Source: Alphaproteobacteria bacterium
GTDB lineage: Bacteria > Pseudomonadota > Alphaproteobacteria > Micavibrionales > Micavibrionaceae
DNA length: 13,118 bases
NCBI GenBank assembly: GCA_030427765.1
Contig: JAUICS010000013.1
Location: forward strand, 1 to 13,118
Direction of reading: 5' to 3'
Below are positions 3,608-12,892 of this stretch, piece by piece (the first letter of the stretch is position 1; every line of letters starts with the position of its first letter). A program made the position numbers and the translations under genes. The notes below the pieces were generated by a model, which was not told where the DNA came from, did not search any database, and saw nothing but the letters and a program-made list of their open reading frames with translations.

Positions 3608-4882
3608 TTATGCAATATTGGCAATGGATTCTGCATTTTCAAGTTTACTGTACAAAAACGCCAAATATGTGTCTGCTGCGCCTGTATCCTCAATACGGCC
3701 TAATCCATCTGCGGAAATATTCAGAATATCTTGTGCGAAATCATGGAATGTTCGTCCATCGTCCATGACTGTATTTAATCCGTCTTTACATGCGGATGCG
3801 CGCAGTCTTCCAACATACTCACCGGACCAGTTTTTGATAACATCATAGGCATTATCAAGTGCGGCTTGATCGTAATAGATGCCTTTCCACATGGCCGGTA
3901 GGGCCATTACATCATCCGGAGACACACTATCGGCGCCGCGTAATTCCAAATATTTTTTAAGACGCACATCTGTGAATATTGTTGAAATATGGACGTGCCA
4001 ATCGTCTGTTGTGGCGATATCGCCCTCAAGACCGATAAGTTTCCCGTCTATAAAGCTGCGGAAAGATTGTCCGGACACATCGATGTATTTCCCGTTTCGG
4101 TATGCAAACAATATTGGTACATCAAGTGCAAAATCAACATAACGTTCAAAACCCATACCATCTTCGAACACAAATTCGGGTGCGCCGGTACGGTGTGGGT
4201 CGACATCTTCCCAAAGATGCATGCGGTATGACGCATATCCTGAATCTTTACCCTCTGCCATATGCGAGTTTGCAAATAATCCGGTTGTCAGTGGCTGCAG
4301 CGCAAGGCCAACACGAAATTTCTTAACCATGTCGGCTTCACTGTCAAAATCCATGTTTACCTGTGCCGTGCATGTACGGACCATCATGTCTACGCCATGA
4401 TTGCCAACCGCCTCCATGTGTTTTTTCATGACATCGTAACGCGTTTTTGGCATCCAGTGGATGTCATCATTTGTCCATTCCGGCGCAAAACCCAGGCCCT
4501 TTAGGCCTATCCCGAGCGCGTCGGCGGCGCTTGTAAGTACATCAATGAATCCTTTATATTCTGCCTCGATCTCGGACAGGGTATTTAAAGGAGAGCCAGA
4601 AAACTCAACCTGTCCGGCGGGTTCAAGCGTAAGTTGATATGGTCCGTTTGACAGGGCGATGGGGTTTCCCTTTTCTAAAATAGGCGTCCATCCATGATCA
4701 TTAACAATTTTCTGCATAAGGGCGTGTATGCCCGATGGCCCTTCATAGGTTAATGCATTGCCGGTGTCCTTGTGAAATGACAAAAGTTCGTGCTCTAATC
4801 CTATACGCCAGTCTTCACGTGGTTTGCAGCCCTTTTCGAGCTCATGAATTAGATCATCTTTTGTCAGGGGAGAATGTGTCAT
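3608..4882 (-). CDS. gshA: Glutamate-cysteine ligase (plant/alphaproteobacterial GCS2-type)
   Basis: This enzyme catalyses the first step of glutathione synthesis: ATP-dependent joining of L-cysteine to the gamma-carboxyl of L-glutamate in the cytoplasm. The 424-residue protein has the hallmarks of the plant-type class: GLEHE (28-32), LEPAGQVEFSG (86-96), MKKHME (152-157), MVRTCTAQVNMDF (167-179), and ANSHMAEGKDSGY with HLWEDVDPHRTG (about 204-233). This class differs from the E. coli GshA fold family. The length is slightly below the roughly 450 residues common in alphaproteobacteria, with no motif obviously missing. Plant enzymes are controlled by disulfides; whether this one is cannot be read here. 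The ATG at 4882 is preceded by AAAGGA about 8 bases upstream. It is divergent from gshB, which catalyses the next step. Confidence 0.95.
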   Translation of the reverse strand: MTHSPLTKDDLIHELEKGCKPREDWRIGLEHELLSFHKDTGNALTYEGPSGIHALMQKIVNDHGWTPILEKGNPIALSNGPYQLTLEPAGQVEFSGSPLNTLSEIEAEYKGFIDVLTSAADALGIGLKGLGFAPEWTNDDIHWMPKTRYDVMKKHMEAVGNHGVDMMVRTCTAQVNMDFDSEADMVKKFRVGLALQPLTTGLFANSHMAEGKDSGYASYRMHLWEDVDPHRTGAPEFVFEDGMGFERYVDFALDVPILFAYRNGKYIDVSGQSFRSFIDGKLIGLEGDIATTDDWHVHISTIFTDVRLKKYLELRGADSVSPDDVMALPAMWKGIYYDQAALDNAYDVIKNWSGEYVGRLRASACKDGLNTVMDDGRTFHDFAQDILNISADGLGRIEDTGAADTYLAFLYSKLENAESIANIA

Positions 4883-4953
4883 TATGTCGGTCCTTTTTTA
4901 CGTGACCAGAAAAACTGATTTTAAAGCTTCCATTTTGGATGCGCACCTATATT

Positions 4954-4959
4954 TATAAT
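4954..4959 (+). promoter_or_regulatory. Possible -10 element for gshB
   Basis: A perfect TATAAT lies 41 bases before the gshB start, inside the 117-bp region between the divergent gshA and gshB. The -35 region is poor: only a TTTTGG-like stretch at 4933-4938, with a 15-base spacer. I found no convincing matching promoter on the minus strand for gshA, and no operator-like repeat. Confidence 0.35.
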
Positions 4960-4999
4960 AGAAGCCATAACGCTAAAGGAAAGATTAAAGGATAGATTT

Positions 5000-5968
5000 A
5001 TGAATGGCAATAAACCTTTAAATATCGGGGTGATTATGGACCCGATAGAAAATATCAATGTGAAAAAAGATTCTACCTTTGCCATCATGCATGAGGCGCA
5101 ATCCCGCGGTTATAAGGTGTTTACGTTTTTAGAGGAAGATTTGGCCCTGACCAAAGAGGGACCATATGGCTTAGGATATCCCGTCACCCTTTTTGATGAT
5201 CCTGTTACATGGTTCGATAGGGGGCCACAGGAAAAAGTGTGGTTTAAGGACCTTGATGTCATTCATATGCGATCTGATCCGCCGGTCGATAAACGTTACA
5301 TTCATACAACTTATATACTAGAGGAGGCGGAAAAGCACGGAGCATTGGTCGTTAACAGCCCCCGTTCCCTGCGTGATTTTAATGAAAAAATGGTTGCGAC
5401 ATTATTTCCGGGCATTATCCCCGATTATTTGGTGACGGCCGATAAGGGCGAATTAATGGCATTTCTGGAAAAACACCGGAACATTATCATGAAGCCGCTA
5501 GACGTGATGGGTGGGGAGGGGATTTTCCTGTGTCGTCACGATGACCCGAATATTGATGTGATTTTCGAGATGCAAACACAACATGGAACCTACCCTGTCG
5601 TTGTGCAGCCGTTTTTAGAAGATATTCAAAAAGGTGACAGACGCGTTTTGATTTTTGGCGGTCAGCCATTTGATAAGGTTCTTGTCCGCATTCCGCAGGG
5701 GCATTCCATTCGTGGAAATATGGCCGCCGGTGGCCGCACAGAGGTGCATGATATTAGCGCGCACGATAAGAGGATTGCCGATGCCGTATCCGGTTTTCTC
5801 GTTGAGCACGGTATCTATTTCGCGGGGCTGGATATTATTGGGGATTACCTGATTGAAATTAATATCACCAGCCCAACCGGCCTTCGTCAGATTGCCAAAG
5901 AATCACCTGTTGATCCTACGGCTGCGCTATGGGATATGCTTCAGCGCACAATAGAAAGTAAGGCTTAG
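5000..5968 (+). CDS. gshB: Glutathione synthetase
   Basis: GshB adds glycine to gamma-glutamylcysteine using ATP, completing glutathione in the cytoplasm. The 322-residue length is normal for the bacterial family. The N-terminal domain opens with NIGVIMDPIENINVKKDSTF and contains MRSDPP (90-95). The ATP-grasp part shows the KPLDVMGGEGIF loop (165-176), GDRRV (212-216), RGNMAAGG (238-245) and the metal/substrate motif EINITSPTG (286-294). The ATG at 5000 has AAAGGA 8-9 bases upstream. The gene is divergent from gshA, so both enzymes of the pathway can share one regulatory region. No terminator hairpin is visible downstream. The following 131-bp gap holds a perfect TCACGCGTGA palindrome (5989-5998) and a strongly AT-rich stretch. 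Confidence 0.97.
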   Translation: MNGNKPLNIGVIMDPIENINVKKDSTFAIMHEAQSRGYKVFTFLEEDLALTKEGPYGLGYPVTLFDDPVTWFDRGPQEKVWFKDLDVIHMRSDPPVDKRYIHTTYILEEAEKHGALVVNSPRSLRDFNEKMVATLFPGIIPDYLVTADKGELMAFLEKHRNIIMKPLDVMGGEGIFLCRHDDPNIDVIFEMQTQHGTYPVVVQPFLEDIQKGDRRVLIFGGQPFDKVLVRIPQGHSIRGNMAAGGRTEVHDISAHDKRIADAVSGFLVEHGIYFAGLDIIGDYLIEINITSPTGLRQIAKESPVDPTAALWDMLQRTIESKA

Positions 5969-7320: not shown

Positions 7321-7340
7321 TACATTTTTATAAAAATAAA

Positions 7341-7359
7341 AATGATAACTATTCGCATT
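7341..7359 (+). promoter_or_regulatory. Fur-like box 1 upstream of the CGPC protein gene
   Basis: The 19 bases AATGATAACTATTCGCATT contain TGATAAC-T-ATTCGCA, which I count as 11 of 14 matches to the Fur 7-1-7 pattern TGATAAT-N-ATTATCA. The box sits just before a possible -35 element (7367). It partly overlaps a 9-bp perfect AT inverted repeat (7323-7331/7336-7344). The call is by eye; no matrix score was possible. Confidence 0.45.
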
Positions 7360-7366
7360 TAATCCC

Positions 7367-7393
7367 TTTACATCATGTTTGGAATGTAATAAT
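7367..7393 (+). promoter_or_regulatory. Possible promoter of the CGPC protein gene
   Basis: TTTACA (7367-7372) and AATAAT (7388-7393) each match 5 of 6 consensus bases, with a slightly short 15-base spacer. The start point would fall at about 7400, inside the second Fur-like box. That is the classic arrangement for repression by steric block. The gene's ribosome binding site, AAAAGGG, lies just before ATG 7436. Confidence 0.4.
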
Positions 7394-7409
7394 GCTAATG
7401 CAAATCATT
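7391..7409 (+). promoter_or_regulatory. Fur-like box 2 at the presumed start point of the CGPC protein gene
   Basis: AATGCTAATGCAAATCATT contains TGCTAAT-G-CAAATCA, about 10 of 14 matches to the Fur 7-1-7 pattern. It can also be read as successive GATAAT-like hexamers. Taken alone it is weak. It gains weight from box 1, 32 bases upstream, and from the better boxes near 10210-10260. Confidence 0.38.
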
Positions 7410-7435
7410 CTTAACTAAGGTTAAAAGGGTATAAA

Positions 7436-7807
7436 ATGTTTGGAATTGGTAAAGATAAATATGAGCAAGCAAAAGGCTTTGCAAAAGATAAATTTGCAGA
7501 GGCACTTGGCAAAACACAATTCGGTCAACCAGGTCATGAGGCCGAGTATGAATTTACGGAGCTTAAGGTCGAAGATGGTAAATTGAACGCCCGCGTATCT
7601 GTTGTGGGCGCTTGCGGTCCGTGCCAATTGGCGCAGACGGTAACATTTCCGATGGTGTCTGGTGTTTTGCAGGCCGTGTTTAAACGTGCCCCGGCAAACC
7701 AGACACAAGGGCTTCAGTTCGGAACACTTACCGTTGATACGCTTGAGAAAAAAGGCGGCGCGGTACAGCAATCCCATACATTTAGCGGCCAGCAGCTTGT
7801 TCGCTAA
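7436..7807 (+). CDS. Hypothetical 123-residue protein with a CGPC motif
   Basis: I do not recognise the family. The protein has no signal peptide or membrane segment, so it is probably cytoplasmic. The N-terminus (about 6-26) is a lysine-rich amphipathic helix. A beta-rich stretch follows (YEFTELKVEDGKLNARVSVVG, about 38-58). The only two cysteines form GACGPCQ at Cys60 and Cys63. CGPC is the thioredoxin active-site sequence, but there is no preceding Trp and no visible thioredoxin fold, so a metal/cluster site or a redox pair outside that fold is equally possible. The ATG at 7436 has AGGG 6-7 bases upstream. Two Fur-like boxes flank the presumed promoter. The gene converges on the large cysteine-motif gene, with a shared terminator between them. 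Codon use looks like that of its neighbours, so it is a real gene. Confidence 0.8.
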   Translation: MFGIGKDKYEQAKGFAKDKFAEALGKTQFGQPGHEAEYEFTELKVEDGKLNARVSVVGACGPCQLAQTVTFPMVSGVLQAVFKRAPANQTQGLQFGTLTVDTLEKKGGAVQQSHTFSGQQLVR

Positions 7808-7830
7808 GTTTGGCATTATGATACAGAACA

Positions 7831-7863
7831 ATAAAAACCACCCACTGTTTGGGCGGTTTTTAT
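7831..7863. terminator. Bidirectional rho-independent terminator between convergent genes
   Basis: The arms ATAAAAACCACCCA (7831-7844) and TGGGCGGTTTTTAT (7850-7863) enclose a 5-base CTGTT loop and run directly into T-rich sequence on both sides. There is one imperfect position (7840/7854). In the plus transcript it is an A-C mismatch; in the minus transcript it becomes a G-U wobble. The hairpin should therefore be slightly stronger for the large minus-strand gene. It lies 24 bases after the CGPC gene stop. Confidence 0.85.
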
Positions 7864-7875
7864 ATATTTTGGAGC

Positions 7876-7896
7876 GGCTATAATACGGTTATAGCC
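7876..7896 (-). terminator. Second perfect hairpin at the end of the large gene
   Basis: GGCTATAA (7876-7883) and TTATAGCC (7889-7896) form a perfect 8-bp stem with a 5-base loop, overlapping the last base of the stop codon of the large minus-strand gene. In that transcript it comes just before the strong terminator at 7831-7863. It may be an accessory terminator or an RNA-end protecting stem. It lacks its own U tract, so it is not a standard terminator alone. Confidence 0.45.
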
Positions 7897-10187
7897 TAGC
7901 CAACCTTCGGCATGTCATAGCGTACGTTATCATTGTCGGACGATTGATCGTCAAAGCCCATTTCGGATACGGATTGTGCGACCATATCGGCGACGGTCAT
8001 ACCTTGTGCCGTGTTCTTAAAACATTTTGAGCAATCTCCGCCGCACCCACTGCATGGATCTACAGGGTCTCTGATTTCAGCGGCTTCTATGGTTACAGAT
8101 CCACTTGTGGACGTGTCACCGATCCCAGTGGCCGCGGCAATTTCTGTTGTTGCCGTGTTACTATTTGCCGTCATGTCTTCCGCAAAACCCATTTCGGATA
8201 CGGATTGCGCAACCATGTCGGCGACAGTCATGCCATGTGATGCGTTTCGAAAACATTTGGAACAATCGCCACCGCACCCACTACATGGATCAACCGGGTC
8301 TTTAATCTCGGCGGCCTCAACTTTTACTACGCCTTGTTTACTGTCCGTATCAAATCCTTGCGCTTCCTGCAGAACGGCTTCTACAGCGCTTTCTTCTTGC
8401 GTGGCAATTTTTTCCAATGTCTGTTTTTGTACTGGATCAGTCTTTGCTTGTGCAGCTTCTTTAATTGCCTCAACCGTTTTTACAACATCTGCTTTTGCCG
8501 CAACGGCTTGTTCGATCACTTCAGGTTTAATTTGTGTATTGGCGGGGGCATCTTGTTTGATGCCATTATTCGACATGATGTTTTCGGCCGTGCCGCCATC
8601 CTGTGTTTGAATAACGGACTGTACCTGTTTCACAGGCCCAGCAACCGATTCAGGCATGTTTTCAACAATGTTTGGTGTTGTTGTGACAATATTGGCCAGT
8701 CCTACCTTGTCACCTGCCTCAACGGCTTCCTTAATCTTTGCGACAACGGCCTTCTCCACAGATGGTGCGTCGGCGGCAATGCCGTCGGTGGTGATTGCGT
8801 TTATGCCTGCATCACCTGCATTCGCGGTTACTACTTGTGCTCCTGTGTTTGCTTTCGCGCCGTCTGCCGTCACTGTATCTACAATTGTTTCCGCTGGGGG
8901 CGTTCTTGAATCAATTGATATTTCGCCAGACTCAATTTTTGCAGCGACTTCTGTGCTGGCGGAGCTTAGGTCGGCGAATGTGACTTCGGTTGCCACAACC
9001 GCACTGCCCAAATCAACTTGTATGTCTGTTGGCATATTTGAAATAACCTGCGGTGCATCTGCGATGACTTGCAGAACGGCGGATGTATCACCCACTTTTA
9101 ATGCAGATGATAAATTATCGAGTGTTGCCGGTTCAACGCCATCTGGCGGGTTGGCAATAACATCCTGAATGGCGCTTATTACCTCCGTTGCGACCGTAAT
9201 AGAATCCGCGGGTGATAGATGAACTTGTGCGGTTGCGCTTTCCACTGCCGTGGCGATAGTACCTGCAATTTGTGGCGCGGCGGTTCCGGTGTCGGCGGTA
9301 AGTGTTTCAAATGATGTTTCGATGGTTTGTATGGTCGCCGATATGTCCGTGGCCTTCATGTCCGACGCCGATATGGTCTGGCCAAGATCACCGATTTCGG
9401 CAATAACGGTTGACGCCAGAGCGGGAGATGCCGTTCCATCCTTAACCGCCGTATCAATCATATCAGCCGCTTTTTTAACAAGAGCAGATATATCAATTGC
9501 CGATATATCTGTATCACCGGCCTCAATCGCCTGTTTTGCCGTTTCAATGTCCTCAAGAACCACCATAATGTCTGCGCTTTGCTTATCAACGCCTTGCAAC
9601 GTTTCCGGAATTTCCACTTCTTCCGCACTGCCCATTCCGCCCGCGCCATCTATACCGGGGGTGGTCGCCTCCATTGTCTGATCGATATCTGCGCCATTTG
9701 TCCCTATGCCAACCATATCACCGAAAAAGATGAGCAGGTTCTTTTCCTTTTGCAGTTCCGTGAACATAAACGCATCAATTTCATCGGATGCGGACGATAC
9801 CGTCCCGTCAATTGTGTATTTCATCGTTACACTGGATGATCCGAGGTCGGATTTATGCTCGCCGTTTACGGCTATCATGTGAAATGATTTAAATTCCGGC
9901 AGGTCTCCCGGTTTTTTATCCGTTACAACGACACGTACGTACATTTGTGCAGGATGTTTTTTGTTTGTGTACTTCAAGCCCTCACTAGCAACAAAGTGAC
10001 ACAGGCTTTGTAAAACCGATTCTGTCATTGCATGGCTCAGGCCGCGTTTGTGCAATTCATTGCGCGTTGTGTCGATAACCTCAATCGGATCATTTCCATG
10101 AAGTTTGAGGTCGGTTTCATGTCCGCGGTCACTCCGGTCAACAAGGTAGTTTGCGGCGACTTTGATAAGCGCATCATTGTGTAACAT
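7896..10187 (-). CDS. Large acidic low-complexity protein with duplicated C-x2-C-x3-C-x2-C motifs
   Basis: I do not recognise the family of this 763-residue protein. Residues 1 to about 165 look like a globular alpha/beta domain, with segments such as MYVRVVVTDKK (82-92), FKSFHMIAVNGEHKS and LLIFFGDMVGIG (151-162). From about 185 to 620 it is acidic and rich in Ala, Thr, Asp, Ile and Val, with helical, degenerately repetitive sequence. Residues 362-389 and 488-515 align without gaps (shared GD, P and NMP). The C-terminus carries two near-identical 48-residue units (621-668 and 698-745), each with PCSGCGGDCSKCF and then GMTVADMVAQSVSEMGF. Eight of its nine cysteines sit in these motifs, which suggests metal or iron-sulfur binding. 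No signal peptide or membrane helix is visible. The ATG at 10187 has only a weak AGAAAG upstream. Two Fur-like boxes precede the gene. Confidence 0.8.
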   Translation of the reverse strand: MLHNDALIKVAANYLVDRSDRGHETDLKLHGNDPIEVIDTTRNELHKRGLSHAMTESVLQSLCHFVASEGLKYTNKKHPAQMYVRVVVTDKKPGDLPEFKSFHMIAVNGEHKSDLGSSSVTMKYTIDGTVSSASDEIDAFMFTELQKEKNLLIFFGDMVGIGTNGADIDQTMEATTPGIDGAGGMGSAEEVEIPETLQGVDKQSADIMVVLEDIETAKQAIEAGDTDISAIDISALVKKAADMIDTAVKDGTASPALASTVIAEIGDLGQTISASDMKATDISATIQTIETSFETLTADTGTAAPQIAGTIATAVESATAQVHLSPADSITVATEVISAIQDVIANPPDGVEPATLDNLSSALKVGDTSAVLQVIADAPQVISNMPTDIQVDLGSAVVATEVTFADLSSASTEVAAKIESGEISIDSRTPPAETIVDTVTADGAKANTGAQVVTANAGDAGINAITTDGIAADAPSVEKAVVAKIKEAVEAGDKVGLANIVTTTPNIVENMPESVAGPVKQVQSVIQTQDGGTAENIMSNNGIKQDAPANTQIKPEVIEQAVAAKADVVKTVEAIKEAAQAKTDPVQKQTLEKIATQEESAVEAVLQEAQGFDTDSKQGVVKVEAAEIKDPVDPCSGCGGDCSKCFRNASHGMTVADMVAQSVSEMGFAEDMTANSNTATTEIAAATGIGDTSTSGSVTIEAAEIRDPVDPCSGCGGDCSKCFKNTAQGMTVADMVAQSVSEMGFDDQSSDNDNVRYDMPKVG
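7953..8096 (-). repeat. Cysteine-motif repeat unit, copy 2
   Basis: This stretch encodes residues 698-745 of the large protein, with Cys712, Cys715, Cys719 and Cys722. It matches copy 1 at about 41 of 48 residues by my count. The DNA differs at many silent positions, so the duplication is not recent and the protein sequence has been kept by selection. Confidence 0.9.
8184..8327 (-). repeat. Cysteine-motif repeat unit, copy 1
   Basis: This stretch encodes residues 621-668, with Cys635, Cys638, Cys642 and Cys645. It is separated from copy 2 by a 29-residue Thr/Ala/Ser/Gly linker. The most variable positions are the residues just after the last cysteine (RNASH against KNTAQ). The motif core and the TVADMVAQSVSEMGF tail are identical. 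Confidence 0.9.
8643..8726 (-). repeat. Degenerate 28-residue internal repeat, copy 2
   Basis: This encodes residues 488-515 of the large protein (AVEAGDKVGLANIV to NMPESV). It aligns without gaps to residues 362-389, sharing GD, a central Pro and NMP, with hydrophobic positions conserved elsewhere. Identity is only about a quarter, so this is a by-eye call. Confidence 0.45.
9021..9104 (-). repeat. Degenerate 28-residue internal repeat, copy 1
   Basis: This encodes residues 362-389 (ALKVGDTSAVLQVI to NMPTDI) of the large protein. Together with copy 2 it suggests that the long acidic middle grew by duplication of a helical unit, though other copies are too eroded for me to fix their borders. 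Confidence 0.45.
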
Positions 10188-10209
10188 AGAATACTTTCTT
10201 TATGTAAAC

Positions 10210-10229
10210 GATAATGAGAGTCATTATTA
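10210..10229 (-). promoter_or_regulatory. Fur-like box A upstream of the large cysteine-motif gene
   Basis: GATAATGAGAGTCATTATT (10210-10228, plus-strand reading) matches the classic 19-base Fur box GATAATGATAATCATTATC at 16 of 19 positions by my count. It contains a perfect 7-bp inverted repeat, ATAATGA-GAG-TCATTAT (10211-10227). It lies 23 bases before the ATG of the large gene, where bound Fur would cover the promoter or start point. It is the best of the four Fur-like sites in this window. Confidence 0.65.
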
Positions 10230-10241
10230 ATTAGGCTTAAA

Positions 10242-10260
10242 TATAAGAATGATTCTCAAT
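10242..10260 (-). promoter_or_regulatory. Fur-like box B upstream of the large cysteine-motif gene
   Basis: TAAGAAT-G-ATTCTCA (10244-10258) is a near-perfect palindrome, 6 of 7 positions symmetric, and matches the Fur 7-1-7 pattern at about 11 of 14. It is centred 32 bases from box A, about three helical turns, so two dimers could bind the same face. The shared intergenic region ends about 95 bases further on at the aminotransferase start, so an effect on that gene is possible. Confidence 0.55.
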
Positions 10261-10348
10261 TTCATCAAGCGTAAAAATCGTATTTTAGTGTTTATTTTTC
10301 AGTATTTACGGATTATGAATATTTAGAATGAACCTCAGAAAAGGATGA

Positions 10349-11578
<1,230 letters not shown>

Positions 11579-11584
11579 AAGCTG

Positions 11585-12892
11585 TTATTTTGGTGTTGTG
11601 GGGTCTTGCGCCACGTCCTGAGTTGTATCTGGTGTTGCCGCCGGATCAACGTCATCGTTGGATGGCTCCGGTGCATCGTTCAGGGCAATATCGGCGGTCG
11701 TGATCGGTGAAATCATACCATGAACAGGTTGGCAAAAATATTCCTTACATACGTCCGGAATGGGTGTGCCTTCACGTATGTGGTGCTGAGCAATCAGGAA
11801 TTTAACAAGTTCTATGGCACGGTCACGCACTTCCGGTTTGGCAAACATATGCCGCGCCACTTTACGGCGCAGTTCGAGTTGCTCCGCCCGTGTGTCGAAC
11901 ACATCCAATGTCGGCCAGTCTTTACCGGGTTTTGCATTCGCGGGCGGTGTTAATGGTTCGTTCCAAATCATTACGTTTTCTTCGCCAAGTAATTCACGCA
12001 TACCTTCGAATAAGGCAAAACGGGTGGATGCCTGCGGTACACGTTTGGTCAGAACGCCGTCTGTAATAAATTGTAATGGCGTCATTGAATCCCAGATCGT
12101 TTTTTCCATGGGCTCTGTTGATACGCCGTTTCCAACAAATGTGTAATGAATTTTATCGGCAACGTCGGGATTTAAACGTCCGGCCAGCTTCATAGTAAAA
12201 ATAAGTTCGCTGAGTTCAACATGGGCACCGTCATAATGGGTAGAGCCCGTGGCCTCTGAAAATACGCTTTTAAATATCGTGGGAACCGCGGTTCCCATTT
12301 TGCAGATTTCCGAAAGCGGTATTGTTTTGTCACGGTTTGCCGGGGATAGCCATTCCAGTTCCTCGGTCAATAAATCATCATCGACCTTATAAAACGGGAA
12401 AGGTTGATGATGCGGGTGGATTGTATGTGTGGTAATCAGGACCGTACCCTTCAAATCAGAGAGTGTCTTGTCACCGAAAAACATTTCTAGAATTTCACCT
12501 TTGCGTGTCCGGTCAAACAGGGCGGGACTGATGTGGCCGGTAATCAAACGGCCGATTGTCGCGTTGTAGAAATGCAGACCCATATTTTTTGAATAATGGT
12601 AACGGGCAAATGGAATATATTCCGGCGCATATTTGTAGAATTTCTCGGCATAGTCATGAGGGTCCATCCCGGCTGTAAGGGCAACCGTATGAATAATTCC
12701 AACGGAAGCGGCATTCCAGATGGTGAATAAATCGGTTAGCTGATAGCGCGTTCCTGTAATTTCATATGCAAGATCATATAAGAAAAGAAGTTTTTCCAGC
12801 GAATATACGCCATCGGCACCACCACCTGGCAAATGAACGGCTGTTTGATACCGGTCGCAATCCTTATGTATATCGTCTCCCATGTTCCCCAT
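11585..12892 (-). CDS. Patatin-like phospholipase-family protein with altered motifs
   Basis: Patatin-like proteins are acyl hydrolases with a Ser-Asp dyad acting on membrane or storage lipids. In this 435-residue protein the glycine-rich oxyanion segment is PGGGADGVYSL (22-32), with Pro where DGGG is usual. The nucleophile elbow is AASVG (61-65), keeping Ser63 but replacing the first Gly of GxSxG with Ala. The catalytic Asp motif is YDGAHVELS (Asp221). The dyad is thus present in an unusual setting, so activity is likely but not certain. The last 30 or so residues (from about 405) are acidic, Pro/Thr-rich and probably disordered. There is no signal peptide. ATG at 12892 has no ribosome binding site; ATG at 12883 has GGGGA very close, so the start is uncertain by three codons. 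The gene is 65 bp downstream of the partial gene at the window end. Confidence 0.8.
   Translation of the reverse strand: MGNMGDDIHKDCDRYQTAVHLPGGGADGVYSLEKLLFLYDLAYEITGTRYQLTDLFTIWNAASVGIIHTVALTAGMDPHDYAEKFYKYAPEYIPFARYHYSKNMGLHFYNATIGRLITGHISPALFDRTRKGEILEMFFGDKTLSDLKGTVLITTHTIHPHHQPFPFYKVDDDLLTEELEWLSPANRDKTIPLSEICKMGTAVPTIFKSVFSEATGSTHYDGAHVELSELIFTMKLAGRLNPDVADKIHYTFVGNGVSTEPMEKTIWDSMTPLQFITDGVLTKRVPQASTRFALFEGMRELLGEENVMIWNEPLTPPANAKPGKDWPTLDVFDTRAEQLELRRKVARHMFAKPEVRDRAIELVKFLIAQHHIREGTPIPDVCKEYFCQPVHGMISPITTADIALNDAPEPSNDDVDPAATPDTTQDVAQDPTTPK

Follow-up and report, generated by a model that had tools for sequence, protein, structure and literature searches.

A predicted Fur-controlled gene pair joining a NifU-like protein to a cysteine-tailed protein from a family with putative iron-type and zinc-type members

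In the Fur regulon of Caulobacter crescentus, an alphaproteobacterial Fur acts on a 19-bp palindromic site, and an NFU gene is induced 4.6-fold in iron limitation; the passage giving this figure does not extend to Fur dependence (PMC3751524). The locus described here resembles that regulon on both counts, with Fur-like sites and an NFU-like gene. Its small protein also resembles NfuA and the C-terminal domain of NifU (PF01106), with which it aligns around a CxxC motif (GACGPC, against GACSGC in the genome's own Nfu). Unlike these carriers, it falls short of the family cut-off, gives no Nfu_N match and has a separate, Fur-boxed gene of its own. GTPases of the Zur-regulated COG0523 and ZigA group share control by metal starvation, and a ZigA-like gene (589.5 bits; cut-off 600) stands under a Zur-like box beside one relative of the large gene, at locus L068. 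The large protein differs from them in lacking a GTPase domain match: cobW (PF02492) found nothing in it up to E=10, nor in 16 N-terminal domains of its family up to E=1. Bacterial metallothioneins carry dense CxxC-type Cys clusters, a likeness to the large protein. In its family, however, the cluster makes up a short tail while the whole protein has 511 to 1262 aa, and no metallothionein family is among the large protein's matches. The Fur regulon, Nfu carriers, metal-binding tails and Zur-linked metallochaperones are thus already known parts. Among the papers listed by our literature searches, none deals with the large-protein family, whether with its N-terminal domain, its Cys-tailed build or its putative paired iron and zinc versions, and these putative versions point to a previously undescribed way of handling scarce metals.

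The pair lies in a 13,118-bp stretch of DNA, analysed whole and called the window here. Its two genes are convergent, tail to tail, with stop codons 88 bp apart. Open reading frames and residues bear out the initial annotation, which had described convergent genes with paired cysteines: the small protein has a single CGPC, and the large protein has C635/638/642/645 and C712/715/719/722, two near-identical tails that each read C-x2-C-x3-C-x2-C. Terminator-like hairpins number three in the region, which is not above the shuffled mean of 4.1. The features are as follows.

7436-7807, plus strand: small gene, 123 aa, with a diverged NifU/Nfu-like domain whose CxxC is CGPC
7896-10187, minus strand: large gene, 763 aa; its protein starts with a domain of an unnamed family, continues through an acidic low-complexity middle and carries two Cys tails (from the ORF and homologues)
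9645-10187, minus strand: N-terminal domain of the large protein, residues 1-181, common to all family members
8181-8318, minus strand: Cys tail copy 1 of the large protein, residues 624-669, DPCSGCGGDCSKCF then GMTVADMVAQSVSEMGF
7950-8087, minus strand: Cys tail copy 2 of the large protein, residues 701-746
7831-7863, minus strand: terminator-like hairpin of 14 pairs between the small and large genes
10210-10228: first Fur-like box upstream of the large gene, 16/19
10245-10263: second Fur-like box upstream of the large gene, 14/19
7394-7412: Fur-like box upstream of the small gene, 14/19
7338-7356: another, weak Fur-like box upstream of the small gene, 13/19, on its own at background level

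Scores refer to the 19-bp Fur consensus of the E. coli type. The initial annotation had placed a pair of Fur-like boxes before each gene while allowing that all four might score at background. The same four features emerged here, with coordinates shifted by 0-3 bp; three of them stand, and the box at 7338 is at background, since 13/19 is also reached at several other places in the window. Box centres are 35 bp apart before the large gene and 56 bp apart before the small gene. Both genes have a Fur-like operator upstream above chance, as judged by dinucleotide shuffles of the upstream 150 bp (p=0.0010 for the large gene, p=0.027 for the small gene). A 14-position Fur pattern, NATAATGANNNTCATTATN, has one exact match, at 10211-10227, in the 1,986,922 bases of this genome sequence (77% complete, 429 contigs). 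Allowing up to two mismatches gives 20 places in the same bases, against 6 for a reversed control. We inspected 14 of the other genome matches (L070-L083); 13 fall within an open frame or at its edge; the remaining one, L080, is intergenic. The scan of this fragmentary genome revealed no wider Fur regulon. Three FUR-family proteins are encoded in the genome.

A profile search of the order, together with a sample of the class, placed the large protein in a family of 18 loci in 17 of the order's 142 genomes, that is, the window and 17 loci in 16 other genomes. The sample of 384 other genomes from the class, taken without singling out Caulobacter, yielded no relatives. A nineteenth match, L110 (G056:C142, E=0.003), was dropped as membrane-protein-like, with neither box nor Cys tail. 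Members share a build of a common N-terminal domain of about 180 residues, a middle of variable length and composition, and short Cys tails. By eye, the middles of the close relatives L065, L066 and L067 are alike, and in the 1262-aa member of genome G118 (L008:5205-8990) the middle contains three or so long repeats that are nearly identical. Cysteines cluster towards the C-terminus in all 17 members with a readable tail (L109 runs off its contig).

The large protein is a member of no named family, as no Pfam or NCBIfam family covers it. No model in either collection exceeded its cut-off for the N-terminal domains of the 16 members scanned, and searches of these domains against PDB sequences gave weak matches only, the best (E 0.0089) being a designed protein. 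DUF6455, the candidate for the Cys tail region, scored 16.1 bits against a Pfam cut-off of 23.7, and the large protein's GON, YedF and Ferritin matches likewise fell below their cut-offs. AlphaFold2 without an alignment produced two poor models, with mean pLDDT of 39 and 48, the latter being the single-sequence model of the small protein. A whole-protein search of 5.8 billion proteins returned only the window itself among the matches listed; for the large protein the list of candidates was full (7995 and 7994 scored) and known homologues were missed too, so this absence carries no evidential weight there. Predicted Fur regulation and the large protein's family membership have good support from sequence.

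Upstream of the large gene, the 18 loci carry Fur-like boxes in ten cases, Zur-like boxes in five and neither in three. The Fur-type loci are the window, L009, L010, L061, L064, L065, L066 and L067, with L108 and L109 added later; their boxes score 13-17/19. Shuffle p values are 0.0005-0.011 in seven of the first eight, 0.026 in L108 and 0.004 in L109. Support is lowest for L066, at 13/19 and p=0.076, though it contains the palindrome TGAGAATTATTCTCA. Among 185 control regions upstream of other genes, nine reach 14/19, and all nine belong to the partner gene, the head of the partner's operon or a divergent neighbour sharing the box; the window's small gene, displaced by a longer antisense frame, was left out of these controls.

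The Zur-type loci are L059, L060, L062, L063 and L068, with boxes of 14-15/15 (p at most 0.0015). These boxes resemble the motif GTTA-5N-TAAC given in a Caulobacter Zur study (PMC4176598). FUR-family regulators are encoded near the large gene in L059 and L062, the former with Zur as its best NCBIfam match at 108 bits (cut-off 167). CobW-type GTPases are among the neighbours in L062 and L068, the latter being the ZigA-like gene noted above. The gene following the large gene is co-directional in all five Zur-type loci and of another kind than NifU-like, and those of L059, L060 and L063 form one BLAST family. In L008, L011 and L058 the large gene is preceded by neither kind of box; L008 (p 0.077) and L011 (p 0.099) each have an imperfect Zur-like site close to the upstream gene. 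In seven of the loci that are not Fur-type, small proteins of one BLAST family are encoded upstream of the large gene, as follows.

L008:3987-4484, small upstream protein
L011:8690-9046, small upstream protein
L058:5086-5442, small upstream protein
L059:10356-10691, small upstream protein
L060:7210-7602, small upstream protein
L063:5057-5479, small upstream protein
L068:4346-4756, small upstream protein

Two of these were scanned: the L011 protein bears a weak resemblance to DUF2946 (E 0.013, below the cut-off), and the L060 protein gave no match. DUF2946 genes appear as downregulated in a list within the same Zur study (PMC4176598). A RiPP modification enzyme of the MbnB/TglH/ChrH type is encoded near the boxless L011 member (L011:11092-11949; PF05114, E 1.6e-92).

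The initial annotation had assigned both genes to no known family. This holds for the large one; the small one is NifU-like on hhalign and profile evidence, with a Pfam score below the cut-off (PF01106, 13.1 bits, E=0.11, against 27 bits). Its counterparts in other Fur-type loci cover a range: the partners of L010 (28.6 bits) and L061 (36.0 bits) exceed that cut-off, those of L064 and L066 reach E=0.0009 and E=0.07 for NifU, and a Pfam scan of the L009, L065 and L067 partners gave no NifU match. When the small protein was compared by hhalign with the first four of these, the alignment ran over the CxxC (P=0.0012, probability 20%), and its GACGPC aligned to their NifU motif, so that a conserved GxCxxC stands in the right sequence setting. 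A profile of these four, run against PDB, found Nfu or NifU in five of six matches, all weak (E 0.006-0.044). Run against 1160 ORFs of 16 neighbourhoods, it placed the window's small protein as best non-training match (E=0.0034); the partners of L009 (E=0.67) and L067 (1.9) came behind spurious frames, and the L065 partner was not listed.

When the genome's canonical Nfu, encoded elsewhere in the genome (C77), was added to that profile and 214 proteins from frames of at least 100 aa were searched, the remaining Fur-type partners took ranks 1-4 of 210 non-training proteins (E values: window 0.0005, L067 0.035, L009 0.069, L065 0.12), and the next protein came at 0.72. It is this ranked search, with canonical Nfu in the profile, that suggests NifU-likeness for the L009, L065 and L067 partners; they have Cx3C or Cx5C in place of CxxC, and profile comparison with the other four gave no NifU alignment. 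Overall, two of the eight Fur-type partners are NifU-like above the Pfam cut-off and six on weaker evidence.

The initial annotation had asked whether the two genes stay together in related genomes. They do: a convergent partner with a NifU-like Cys motif is kept in all eight Fur-type loci in which the partner is on the contig, and in each it is the next gene of at least 100 aa. In L061 a 49-aa, Cys-rich frame intervenes (L061:5435-5581, minus strand). It is co-directional with the large gene and just downstream of it, has 11 Cys (MCCCNENDDQGSCGCGDDCACKSG...), appears metallothionein-like by eye and gave no Pfam match. The partner promoter, or that of its operon head in L009, L065 and L067, has a Fur-like box of its own (p<0.05) in five of the eight loci; those of L010 (p 0.079), L065 (0.15) and L066 (0.83) are not significant. 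The operon heads belong to one family of 283-286 aa proteins (L009:9938-10795, L065:9161-10009, L067:2980-3834), and those of L009 and L065 have no Pfam match above cut-off.

Regulator type and tail run in parallel. Outside the N-terminal domain, the richest 15-residue stretch holds four Cys in each of the first eight Fur-type members, against two or three in all eight others, and L108, found afterwards, has four Cys in 12 residues. A four-Cys tail thus marks 9/9 readable Fur-type members and 0/8 others, separating all 17 readable cases; the association was noticed post hoc, and labels were assigned after the sequences had been seen. Spacing within the tail is variable, including C-x2-C-x3..5-C-x2-C, C-x2-C-x2-C-x5-C and others. 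When the first 16 N-terminal domains are placed on a tree, four changes of the Fur label are needed, at least three of them forced by supported branches, and a single Fur clade is rejected (AU p 7e-75). L064 and L068, which are sisters with support of 100/99, illustrate one such change. The first has a Fur-like box, the tail CSGCFNDCAGC and a NifU-like partner; the second has a Zur-like box, three-Cys and HVCGAGCAH tails, and a different partner. Well supported branches provide three independent contrasts, all concordant (sign test p=0.25); with only three, the association of Fur with four Cys is striking and not statistically proven. The window's two tail copies show 27 differences over 138 bases, with pS 0.67 and pN 0.065. 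In the tandem tails of L009, 22.3 synonymous sites hold 9 changes and 85.7 non-synonymous sites hold 6. By these counts, the tail is maintained by purifying selection.

We propose, with a probability of roughly 0.55, that the pair is a Fur-controlled iron-starvation module in which a Nfu-like Fe-S carrier serves a four-Cys-tailed acceptor for the handling of iron or Fe-S clusters. When iron is plentiful, Fe-Fur would occupy the paired boxes and keep both genes off; when iron is scarce, release of Fur would allow both proteins to be made. The small protein may be a diverged Nfu-type carrier whose CxxC holds a bridging Fe-S cluster, with the large protein as its dedicated partner. In the latter, the N-terminal domain could be a docking or client-binding part that chooses the destination of the cluster, and the acidic middle a long flexible linker. 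An Fe-S cluster, or else iron, would be taken up by the four-Cys clusters at the C-terminus and held there as a protected, deliverable pool of the scarce cofactor. Sequence supports the boxes, the family, the pairing with a NifU-like partner, the four-Cys tail and the purifying selection on it. Metal binding, cluster type, transfer between the proteins and its direction, and the role of the N-terminal domain are our inference; the initial annotation had likewise offered iron or iron-sulfur handling as inference.

Genomic context agrees with this iron-starvation mechanism. The L009 locus is flanked by class Ib nrdHIEF (L009:2259-6146; ribonucleotide reductase model TIGR04171) and the catalase-peroxidase gene katG (L009:10949-13141). 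Near the window pair are the divergent glutathione synthesis genes GCS2 (glutamate-cysteine ligase) and GSH-S (glutathione synthetase), at 3608-5968, which an ELFV dehydrogenase gene separates from it. Against the proposal stand the canonical Nfu that the genome already encodes, the sub-threshold NifU scores of the small protein and of the L009, L065 and L067 partners, the three partner promoters without a significant box, and the matches of at least 14/19 within coding sequence of several loci.

Zur-type paralogues might do an analogous zinc job with three-Cys or Cys/His tails. The family could then consist of lineage-restricted metal-starvation adaptors built on one N-terminal domain, the metal being changed by joint exchange of operator, ligand tail and partner gene, with L064 and L068 as an example; to us this broader reading is evenly balanced between right and wrong. 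In this exchange a Fur operator, a four-Cys tail and a convergent NifU-like carrier would give way to a Zur operator, a three-Cys or Cys/His tail and a co-directional protein of another kind. If the scheme is true, an unnamed protein family joins the small set that handles scarce iron and zinc inside cells. It would also be a natural experiment, with the same domain joined to iron-type and zinc-type tails, operators and partners. One could then test how short ligand tails encode metal specificity, and how a dedicated Nfu-like carrier sustains Fe-S supply under iron starvation. Genes that are blank in Pfam and NCBIfam would gain an annotation as Fur-linked or Zur-linked.

Other explanations should be considered. 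The tails may instead be direct binding sites for Fe(II), Zn(II) or Cu(I) and form a metallothionein-like reservoir, with the NifU-like protein an independent member of the same regulon. Tail spacing is loose for one defined cluster site, which favours such a reservoir, as does the Cys-rich frame downstream of the L061 large gene. We nevertheless consider it unlikely, because a NifU-like partner recurs in convergent orientation and Fur-type tails always hold four Cys, both of which suit Fe-S better.

Alternatively, the pair could spare iron or regulate, and handle no iron itself: the tail would bind zinc at a structural or redox-sensing site, and a client would be acted on by the N-terminal domain in iron shortage. 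Fur-type and Zur-type members use the same N-terminal domain, so the domain itself is not metal-specific, and L009 adjoins katG and a ribonucleotide reductase of class Ib, which is usually manganese-dependent. Yet in every one of the 17 readable cases the number of tail Cys tells Fur-type members from the others. This would not be expected of a general structural zinc site, and we regard this explanation as improbable. An exported metal scavenger with a low-complexity stalk would account for the size-variable, low-complexity middle and the long internal repeats of L008, but it is very improbable: no hydrophobic N-terminal signal segment was seen by eye in the sequences read, and the NifU-like partner is of cytosolic type. 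It is hardly credible that AT-rich sequence produced the boxes by chance or that they act on neighbours such as the ELFV dehydrogenase gene and the aminotransferase gene at 10355, even though the boxes at 10210-10263 sit in the divergent intergenic region that also serves the latter and single matches of at least 14/19 fall inside coding sequence of several related loci (e.g. L009, L058 and L066), because homologous large genes carry such boxes in nine other genomes with other neighbourhoods and the exact pattern is unique in the 77% complete genome sequence.

Relatives of the ELFV dehydrogenase occur in 57 of 104 genomes at E<=1e-30, and a search for related loci with this protein led to one locus, in a Cytophagales MAG. 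A patatin-like phospholipase is encoded at 11585-12892 of the window, on the minus strand (PF01734, E 2e-9).
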